This document shows positions 7,076 through 63,859 of a DNA stretch of 64,000 nucleotides, piece after piece; position 1 is the stretch's first letter, and the number at the start of each line of letters is the position of its first letter. This DNA is from an uncultured Candidatus Saccharibacteria bacterium. Its GTDB lineage: Bacteria; Patescibacteriota; Saccharimonadia; Saccharimonadales; Saccharimonadaceae. Below the pieces are notes generated by a model, which was given only the letters and a program-made list of their open reading frames with translations, did no database searches and was not told where the DNA came from. A program made the position numbers and the translations under genes. The stretch covers positions 18,874 through 82,873 of the forward strand of contig CAMJLE010000001.1 in the NCBI GenBank assembly GCA_946406665.1, in the 5' to 3' direction.

Positions 7076-8689
7076 TCACGTAAAGCGATCCATCGTTATT
7101 GACACACCGTTCGGGCAGGTCTCTTTGAGCCCCTCGAAGGTCTCGTAGATCGACCTGGGGTCTTCCCCGTTGAGAATCTCGAGCGCCTTCAGGACGACTC
7201 GACCAGCCCTCTCGGGAACAAGGTCGCCATTCTCGAGCTTAACGAACTGTTCTCCTTTAGCGAGCTGCCCGTCAAACTTTACTAATATCCGGTACCAAGG
7301 ACCAGATATCAGAACGCCGGTATACTCCCCAACGCCATACACCTCGATACTATAAGAAGAAAGAACCATATAGCCGTAGTTGTTTGTTTGCGGGAGAAGA
7401 GTCATTTTTTCGGTCGTCGCTGGGTCTACGCGCCATTTCTGGCCATGCGCAAGAGCACGCAAATCCAGGCATCCGTCGCTTATATAGGCCGCAACGTCCT
7501 CCTGCGTAGAAATCCATCCGTCGCTAAAATTAGTCACGACAGGCGGCTGCTCCTCGGGATTTTCTGCCCTAATGACTTCCTCTGGGTCTGTCTTTGTGCG
7601 GAGATAGACATCCGCCAAGACGCCAGTCGGAGCCGTCTTGTCAAGGGCGTCAAAGCGCACCTCGAAGAAGTCGGGATAGTTCGCAAGGCTACTCATGGCC
7701 AGCGAGATTGCTCTCGCCATCAGCTCTGGAATTTTGCTTCCATTTTCCATGACGAATATATCGCCGGCCAATGGAAACGACATCCAAATCGTCACCCCGC
7801 GCCCGAGCTGCGCCTCAAAGTAAGGTCGCTCGGCATCGTCCCAGCTTCCATAGACTCGGATCTTCGACGTCTGACCTAGTTGGCTGTCGTCGTAATAATA
7901 CGAGACGCCCCCGCCTTCGATGCTATCTCCGCCAACAAAACCGCGGCGCTTAGCCGTCTCGCCGAGCCAGAATTGATTGCCCATCGTTACAATGGGCGTA
8001 CTGTCAACATCGTCCCAGGTTACCAGCTCGGTGTCGGGATTGTAGAGAACCTTGACGTCCGTATTGGCGGACTCACCCCACTGCTTGAGGCGCAGGAAAC
8101 GAGCCTTCGTTCTCGCCGATTCTCCATCAGACGTCTCGAGGTAATATAAAACTACCTTAGCCATCAACGGAGAAATGTGGCTTCCGTCTTCCAGAACCAG
8201 CGTTCTGTCCTCGGGCGAGTCATGAAATTTCATATCGATTATACATGTGGGTGCAAAGATTCCGCCATGTATGTATGGACAATCCGAATCACTTCGGGCT
8301 CCATGGATCGTAATATTCGATCCGCTCTCTGGGACCATGTCGGCAGTAATCTCTTCCCCGGCAACCCCATAGCCATCAGTATGGCCATGAGCTTTCGCCA
8401 TGCGGCGAAAATCGAGGTTATTCCCTTCGTCGATGTACGTCTCAATGTCGCCCTTCAGGAAGAAGTATCCTTCGCCGAATTGGACCCTGTTGCCAACTTC
8501 GTCAATCGCGGGATCGTAGTCCTCGAAGACGAAGGTGGGCCTCATGACCATTGTTTCAGGCTCAGGCTCTGGCTCGGTTTCCGCCGTAGCTCCGTATTGG
8601 TTAGCAGCGTGCATAAATGACACGAAAATCAGCGTGGCGCAGAGTATTGCCGCTGCGCACTTGAAGATTCTATTAGATTCTTTCTTCAT
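7076..8689 (-). CDS. Exported protein with three internal repeats, unknown function
   Basis: I start at ATG 8689 (MKKESNRIFKCAAAI) because AAGGAGGGGAAAG precedes it. The 537-aa product has a signal peptide ending near AANQYGATAE and a short Glu/Pro linker (EPEPEPE). A unit then recurs three times about 160 residues apart, most visible at its end: LVLEDGSHISPLMAKVVLYYL, FVMENGSKIPELMARAISLAM and VKLENGDLVPERAGRVVLKAL. Units one and three also share DIETYIDEG...LDFRRMAKAHG and DVAAYISDG...LDLRALAHG. No catalytic motif or membrane anchor is seen. A cell-surface or secreted adhesin-like role is conceivable but not shown. It has its own promoter and terminator. Confidence 0.8.
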   Translation of the reverse strand: MKKESNRIFKCAAAILCATLIFVSFMHAANQYGATAETEPEPEPETMVMRPTFVFEDYDPAIDEVGNRVQFGEGYFFLKGDIETYIDEGNNLDFRRMAKAHGHTDGYGVAGEEITADMVPESGSNITIHGARSDSDCPYIHGGIFAPTCIIDMKFHDSPEDRTLVLEDGSHISPLMAKVVLYYLETSDGESARTKARFLRLKQWGESANTDVKVLYNPDTELVTWDDVDSTPIVTMGNQFWLGETAKRRGFVGGDSIEGGGVSYYYDDSQLGQTSKIRVYGSWDDAERPYFEAQLGRGVTIWMSFPLAGDIFVMENGSKIPELMARAISLAMSSLANYPDFFEVRFDALDKTAPTGVLADVYLRTKTDPEEVIRAENPEEQPPVVTNFSDGWISTQEDVAAYISDGCLDLRALAHGQKWRVDPATTEKMTLLPQTNNYGYMVLSSYSIEVYGVGEYTGVLISGPWYRILVKFDGQLAKGEQFVKLENGDLVPERAGRVVLKALEILNGEDPRSIYETFEGLKETCPNGVSITMDRFT

Positions 8690-63474: not shown

Positions 63475-63548
63475 GGCGCGTTGGCGGAGCAGTTACGCAG
63501 CGGTCTGCAAAACCGCGTAGACCAGTGCAACTCTGGTACGCGCCTCCA
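63475..63548 (+). tRNA. tRNA-Cys (GCA), CCA encoded
   Basis: Acceptor stem GGCGCGT/ACGCGCC, discriminator U, encoded CCA. Anticodon loop CTGCAAA between GCGGT and ACCGC gives GCA. The elbow is unusual: the D-loop reads GAGCAGTTA and the T-loop TGCAACT, so position 18 is A instead of G and position 55 is G instead of T, while G19 and C56 are kept. Confidence 0.93.
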
Positions 63549-63562
63549 CGAAATATGTGCTC

Positions 63563-63649
63563 GCCCGAGTGGCGGAATTGGTATACGCGGCGGACTTAAA
63601 ATCCGCTTCCCTTACCGGATTATGAGTTCGAGTCTCATCTCGGGCACCA
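63563..63649 (+). tRNA. tRNA-Leu (UAA), CCA encoded
   Basis: Acceptor stem GCCCGAG/CTCGGGC, discriminator A, CCA encoded. Anticodon loop CTTAAAA between GCGGA and TCCGC gives TAA. A long variable arm is present. The D-loop (AATTGGTATA) and T-loop (TTCGAGT) are canonical, unlike those of the two neighbouring tRNAs. Confidence 0.95.
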
Positions 63650-63680: not shown

Positions 63681-63783
63681 GAAGCAAGTTCACTATTCAG
63701 CTCCGCATTCGCAACCACACCAACACGAGCTATGACGACACTCTTGCGTTTTGTTTGCTTTTAGCATATAATTTGCATAGCGA

Positions 63784-63859
63784 GCGGGTTTAGCTCAGTT
63801 GTTAGAGCGCTTCCTTGCCAAGGAAGAGGTCGAGAGTTAGAGTCTCTTAACCCGCACCA
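63784..63859 (+). tRNA. tRNA-Gly (GCC), CCA encoded, altered elbow
   Basis: Acceptor stem GCGGGTT/AACCCGC, discriminator A, CCA encoded. Anticodon loop TTGCCAA gives GCC. Compared with ordinary bacterial tRNA-Gly (D-loop AGTTGGTA, T-loop TTCGAGT) this one reads AGTTGTTA and TTAGAGT. That is G19 to T and C56 to A, which together restore a Watson-Crick pair. A TATAAT-like box (ATATAATTTG, 63767-63776) lies upstream. Confidence 0.93.

Follow-up and report, generated by a model that had tools for sequence, protein, structure and literature searches.

Throughout the Saccharibacteria, a class of very small, parasitic bacteria, tRNA-Gly(GCC) has U19-A56 or A19-U56 in place of the elbow pair G19-C56, and the two positions are kept matched by compensatory change. 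The gene under study lies at positions 63784 to 63859 on the + strand of the window, by which we mean the whole 64,000-nucleotide stretch of DNA that was analyzed; it has an encoded CCA and discriminator A73. ARAGORN and the Rfam tRNA model agree on its identity as tRNA-Gly(GCC). The match to RF00005 (70 bits, E = 3e-13, against a gathering threshold of 29) covers model positions 1 to 71 of 71, with a complete cloverleaf; a sequence-only reading of this DNA had proposed a covariance-model search as a check, and this result confirms its assignment. The D-loop, AGTTGTTA, occupies 63797 to 63804 (+ strand), with G18 at 63801 and U19 at 63802 in the register set by relatives, and the T-loop, TTAGAGT, occupies 63837 to 63843 (+ strand), with U54 at 63837, U55 at 63838, A56 at 63839, G57 at 63840, and A58 at 63841. 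G18-U55 is thus present, G19-C56 is absent, and a Watson-Crick pair is retained between positions 19 and 56. The replacement of G19-C56 by U19-A56, as that reading described it, was borne out exactly by the ARAGORN and Rfam calls and by the relatives.

The gene is the last of three + strand tRNA genes at the end of the window, after tRNA-Cys(GCA) at 63475 to 63548 and tRNA-Leu(UAA) at 63563 to 63649. The tRNA-Leu, called by ARAGORN on the + strand, has the canonical GG/TTC elbow and served as neighbor and control. A TATAAT at 63767 to 63772 (+ strand), 11 nucleotides upstream of tRNA-Gly, may be a -10 box, as judged by eye; it has no good -35 element, the promoter scan did not report it, and for tRNA-Gly itself no scoreable element came out of the promoter/terminator scan.

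Because positions 16 to 20 of the D-loop vary in length, the register is not self-evident from a single sequence, and a sequencing error, a pseudogene, or a misread D-loop could in principle give the appearance of a swapped pair. The relatives make such an artifact almost inconceivable. Hundreds of independent assemblies concur, one complete genome among them, the cloverleaf is intact, and the CCA is encoded. Some relatives have 7-nucleotide D-loops, AGTGTTA with TTAGAGC and AGTGATA with TTTGAGT, in which G18 is constant and the change is confined to position 19. In an alignment of 21 tRNA-Gly(GCC) sequences, positions 19 and 56 covary with 0 mismatches (AU in 10, UA in 10, and GC in 1), and a shift of the partners by one to three columns abolishes the signal. 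Each of the 24 secondary and tertiary pairs is formed at 100% in this alignment; 18-55 and 15-48 are invariant, with G18-U55 in 21 of 21. The 7-nucleotide loops and the covariation together settle the register and rule out the alternative U18 G19, and the notion of an artifact is refuted by the relatives. A mispaired D-arm, obtained by folding the lone strand, is without comparative support.

Further evidence comes from congeners. The tRNA-Gly(GCC) of one genome, G255, matches that of G117 and G318 throughout its 76 nucleotides except at positions 19 and 56, and the same is true of G129 and G051; such pairs demonstrate the compensatory change and fix the alignment. Another genome, G137, has the A-U state in its genus's own 9-nucleotide D-loop background, the rest of the genus being U-A among the matches listed. 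The sequence-only reading had held that both partners changed with a Watson-Crick pair retained, and that selection rather than error lay behind the matched double change. It is upheld on both counts by the repeated switching of the pair, in both directions, between U-A and A-U, as well as by the two-position differences between congeners.

To define how widely the swap is distributed, the GTDB species collection was screened for exact copies of the D-arm 19-mer, and among the matches ARAGORN identified 59 intact tRNAs. Fifty-five were tRNA-Gly(GCC), all with A56, from source records mostly labeled Saccharibacteria or TM7 and otherwise mostly unclassified. The remaining 4 (Val, Lys, Lys, and Ala of other bacteria) had U19 in common with them and C56 in every case. 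A56 in 55 of 55 versus C56 in 4 of 4 means that the double change marks a lineage, far above chance. One of the 55 Saccharibacterial tRNA-Gly(GCC) lies in a contig labeled Dokdonella (L051, JALOBC010000077.1), which is probably misbinned.

A second pattern, in which the D-stem, anticodon, and spacing were fixed and the elbow was left free, was run on 393 genomes, that of the window and those of its relatives in the class, and matched in 324. C56 was found in 0 of these 324 pattern-matched genomes, which gives a 95% upper bound of ∼0.9% on the frequency of G19-C56, relatedness being ignored. Limiting position 56 to C or U left 34 genomes, all A19-U56. The other 290 have A56 or G56, with U19-A56 in every one among the matches listed; residue 19 was read among those matches, and a minority of the A56/G56 genomes lie outside that reading. 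U19-A56 with an 8-nucleotide D-loop was verified by exact pattern in 74 genomes, and U19-A56 was present in 79 of 79 further genomes listed, mainly from other families and genera. When the genomes missed by the pattern were searched again, 23 tRNA-Gly(GCC) were recovered, 17 U-A and 6 A-U, with no exception. Relatives with GG and TTC, which the sequence-only reading had named in advance as evidence against it, were not seen in the class. Both orientations occur inside genera g3, g8, g21, and g84 and families f9, f13, and f20. Outside the class, where the elbow was read from the minority of Patescibacteria genomes that match the pattern, most matching families have G19-C56, and families f83 and f113 have A19-U56. 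The discriminator is A73 in Saccharimonadia (window position 63856), whereas the families retrieved from elsewhere in Patescibacteria (L146, L147, and L188 to L192), those with A19-U56 included, have U73.

In the complete genome TM7i (CP075337.1), a single tRNA-Gly(GCC), with U19-A56, accompanies a single tRNA-Gly(UCC), whose elbow is canonical; apart from tRNA-Gly(GCC), every tRNA found in this genome has GG/TTC, in a search list that is perhaps not exhaustive. It had been asked whether another tRNA-Gly with G19-C56 exists alongside the altered one: the UCC isoacceptor of TM7i is such a tRNA, and no second GCC gene was found in that genome. The uniqueness of the GCC gene rests mainly on TM7i, whose tRNA list may be incomplete; the window's genome is 83.65% complete, and the tRNA search does not recover every gene of a genome, as the window's own tRNA-Cys is missing from its output. 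In the 38 long ORFs of the window, the glycine codons are GGT (323), GGC (600), GGA (141), and GGG (120). GGU and GGC thus make up 923 of 1,184 (78%), and the GCC anticodon is needed unless the UCC tRNA superwobbles. Codon usage and the sole GCC gene found make it very probable that translation relies mainly on tRNA-Gly(GCC) for its glycine. One genome of the class (G162) has, in addition, a tRNA-Gly(CCC) that is evidently a duplicate of the GCC gene with an altered anticodon (L145, G162:C3:117700-118200); it lies ∼4 kb from the GCC gene and retains U19-A56. A tRNA-Ala(CGC) with A19-U56 occurs in two class genomes (L055, tRNA at 7110, AGTTGATA/TTTGAAT; L100, tRNA at 878, AGCTGATA/TTTGAGT).

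Staphylococcal peptidoglycan tRNA-Gly have an altered elbow, and the sequence-only reading had raised a nonstandard role, or reduced use of EF-Tu, as a question worth asking. A tRNA dedicated to peptidoglycan, or shared with it, and with reduced use of EF-Tu, would suit the presence of FemAB-family proteins in the window's genome and genus, several per genome; two adjacent full-length genes, encoding 338 and 340 amino acids, are found in the window's genome (L169:902-2960, G000:C20). Several 95 to 99% complete genomes from other families of the order gave no FemAB match; the near-complete order members in which none was found (G039, G254, G185, G173, G352, and G057) all keep the A-U elbow. The staphylococcal non-proteinogenic tRNA-Gly, donors for FemXAB, are extra, dedicated tRNAs in which EF-Tu elements of the T-stem are reported to be lost (PMC9976931). 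The Saccharibacterial tRNA resembles them in being a glycine tRNA with an altered elbow, in a genus with FemAB proteins; unlike them, it is the single GCC decoder found, has an intact T-stem, and carries a compensated Watson-Crick pair. Among the 21 aligned sequences, both T-stem pairs lost in S. aureus are formed, with 51-63 an invariant G-C and 49-65 always paired. The sole GCC isoacceptor, the distribution of FemAB, and the intact T-stem leave the suggested role unsupported, and we consider it highly improbable.

We are confident that this is instead an ordinary proteinogenic Saccharibacterial tRNA-Gly(GCC) whose 19-56 contact is a compensated A-U pair rather than G19-C56. Since G18-U55, U54-A58, and G15-C48 are all retained, its elbow should fold normally, and an A-U pair with unchanged geometry would present the same flat stacking face to RNase P, the ribosome, and the other factors that bind the elbow. 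Selection would then act on the existence of the 19-56 pair and not on its G-C identity. The A-U state probably dates from the class ancestor, its orientation having flipped several times afterwards.

Why the pair is A-U in either orientation is a separate matter. A single ancestral double change may have become fixed in a small, fast-evolving lineage in which any Watson-Crick pair works; the orientation would then flip occasionally with nothing tuned, and the absence of G-C and C-G would be historical contingency. Such neutral compensated drift is a serious candidate, if somewhat short of probable. Human mitochondrial tRNA-Ser(UGA) can no longer be aminoacylated when it carries G19C but regains this activity with A19:U56 or C19:G56 (PMC10412605); the identity of the pair is replaceable in that tRNA, so a swapped pair may simply work. 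Covariation of 18-55 in tRNA-Cys and A19-U56 in tRNA-Ala(CGC) at two loci point to elbow change as a general tendency of these genomes, but G19-C56 is kept in nearly all their other tRNAs. The at least seven flips within the genera and families named above all stay A-U, with none to G-C or C-G, which under drift has a probability of ∼5e-4 if three equally reachable pairs, equal rates, and monophyletic ranks are assumed; the route from U-A to C-G takes transitions only and should be the easiest. This persistence of A-U in either orientation, with G-C and C-G never seen in tRNA-Gly(GCC) of the class, is what would be expected if a weaker, two-hydrogen-bond elbow were selected to offset the all-G/C codon-anticodon helix, bringing ribosome binding, accommodation, or fidelity into line with other tRNAs. 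Once a cognate tRNA is accommodated, the A-site finger stacks on its 19-56 pair (PMC10495418), and all-G/C anticodons are likewise found in the remaining tRNAs observed to have an A-U elbow, tRNA-Ala(CGC) and the GCC-derived tRNA-Gly(CCC). However, GG/TTC is kept by other tRNAs with such anticodons in these genomes (Arg GCG, Arg CCG, Pro GGG, and most Gly CCC), and we regard tuning of this kind as rather unlikely.

Avoidance of G19-C56 that is limited to one tRNA and indifferent to the orientation of A-U is also what would be expected if the identity of G19 or C56 itself were avoided, the swap hiding tRNA-Gly(GCC) from a nuclease, a modification enzyme, or a regulator that recognizes one of them. 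No such elbow-reading factor was identified, and we think an escape of this sort improbable. A regulator that could be sought directly is the T-box: T-boxes stack on the tRNA elbow, and the solved cases include a glycine T-box (PMC4810234), so a glycine T-box could have coevolved with the swap. In a search of 41 relatives, nearly all genomes with a match had a single weak T-box-like leader, none of the matches reached the Rfam cutoff, and similar single matches are seen in most genomes of the genus. The leader in the window's genome (L168:358-526, G000:C3:29757-29925), also below the gathering threshold, is directly upstream of ileS and not of a glycine gene, and thus cannot explain the change in tRNA-Gly. 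As it is the single T-box-like match in that genome, in a search that weaker matches may escape, we rejected a glycine T-box as the cause of the swap.

The neighboring tRNA-Cys(GCA) (63475 to 63548, + strand, called by ARAGORN) is altered at the other elbow contact: A18 (63491) and G55 (63527) replace G18 and U55, and G19-C56 is retained. Among 56 distinct tRNA-Cys sequences in the matches listed from the class search, 30 have G18/U55, 26 have A18/G55, and 0 are mixed. The mutual information between columns 18 and 55 is 0.996 bits, compared with 0.27 for the next column, and both states are present in several families. In tRNA-Cys, the usual G18-U55 contact is repeatedly exchanged for a putative A18-G55 contact, the pairing itself being read from the covariation.

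The tRNA-Gly(GCC) described here shares with canonical bacterial tRNA-Gly(GCC) the cloverleaf, GCC anticodon, G18-U55, U54-A58, G15-C48, the D-stem GCUC/GAGC, and an encoded CCA, and differs from it in having U-A or A-U rather than G-C at 19-56. G19-C56 has been termed universally conserved (PMC10495418); the ribosome, RNase P, T-boxes, and several enzymes all recognize its exposed face (PMC4810234), and C56 has been reported to be a determinant of T54 2-thiolation (PMC7912444). Natural tRNAs without G19-C56 include tRNA-Pyl and type II mitochondrial tRNAs (PMC7609411), but these have lost the whole canonical D/T-loop motif, whereas the Saccharibacterial loops depart from the canonical form at one swapped pair only. 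The A19:U56 and C19:G56 mutants of human mitochondrial tRNA-Ser(UGA) are likewise active despite a Watson-Crick swap (PMC10412605); they are laboratory made and were assayed with seryl-tRNA synthetase only, whereas the Saccharibacterial swap is a natural, fixed state. In the open-access literature, we found no published report of the swap and nothing on the D-loop or T-loop of Saccharibacteria or Patescibacteria tRNAs; the subscription literature was outside the scope of the search.

The class-wide A-U pair in the main glycine tRNA is a rare exception to the near-universal G19-C56 rule and evolutionary proof of the 19-56 contact; it indicates, from nature and not from mutants, that the pair matters rather than its identity. 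It supplies hundreds of natural elbow variants for tests, with the exchange at 18-55 in tRNA-Cys as a further, independent natural case, and models or probes that presume G19-C56 or U55 will misjudge Saccharibacterial tRNAs. More tentatively, the elbows of particular Saccharibacterial tRNAs may be under tRNA-specific selection, as suggested by a 19-56 pair in tRNA-Gly(GCC) that is A-U and never G-C and by the repeated exchange of G18-U55 and A18-G55 in tRNA-Cys. If so, the elbow would not be invariant, as is supposed, but open to evolutionary tuning, and would report on a divergent ribosome or on an elbow-reading factor.
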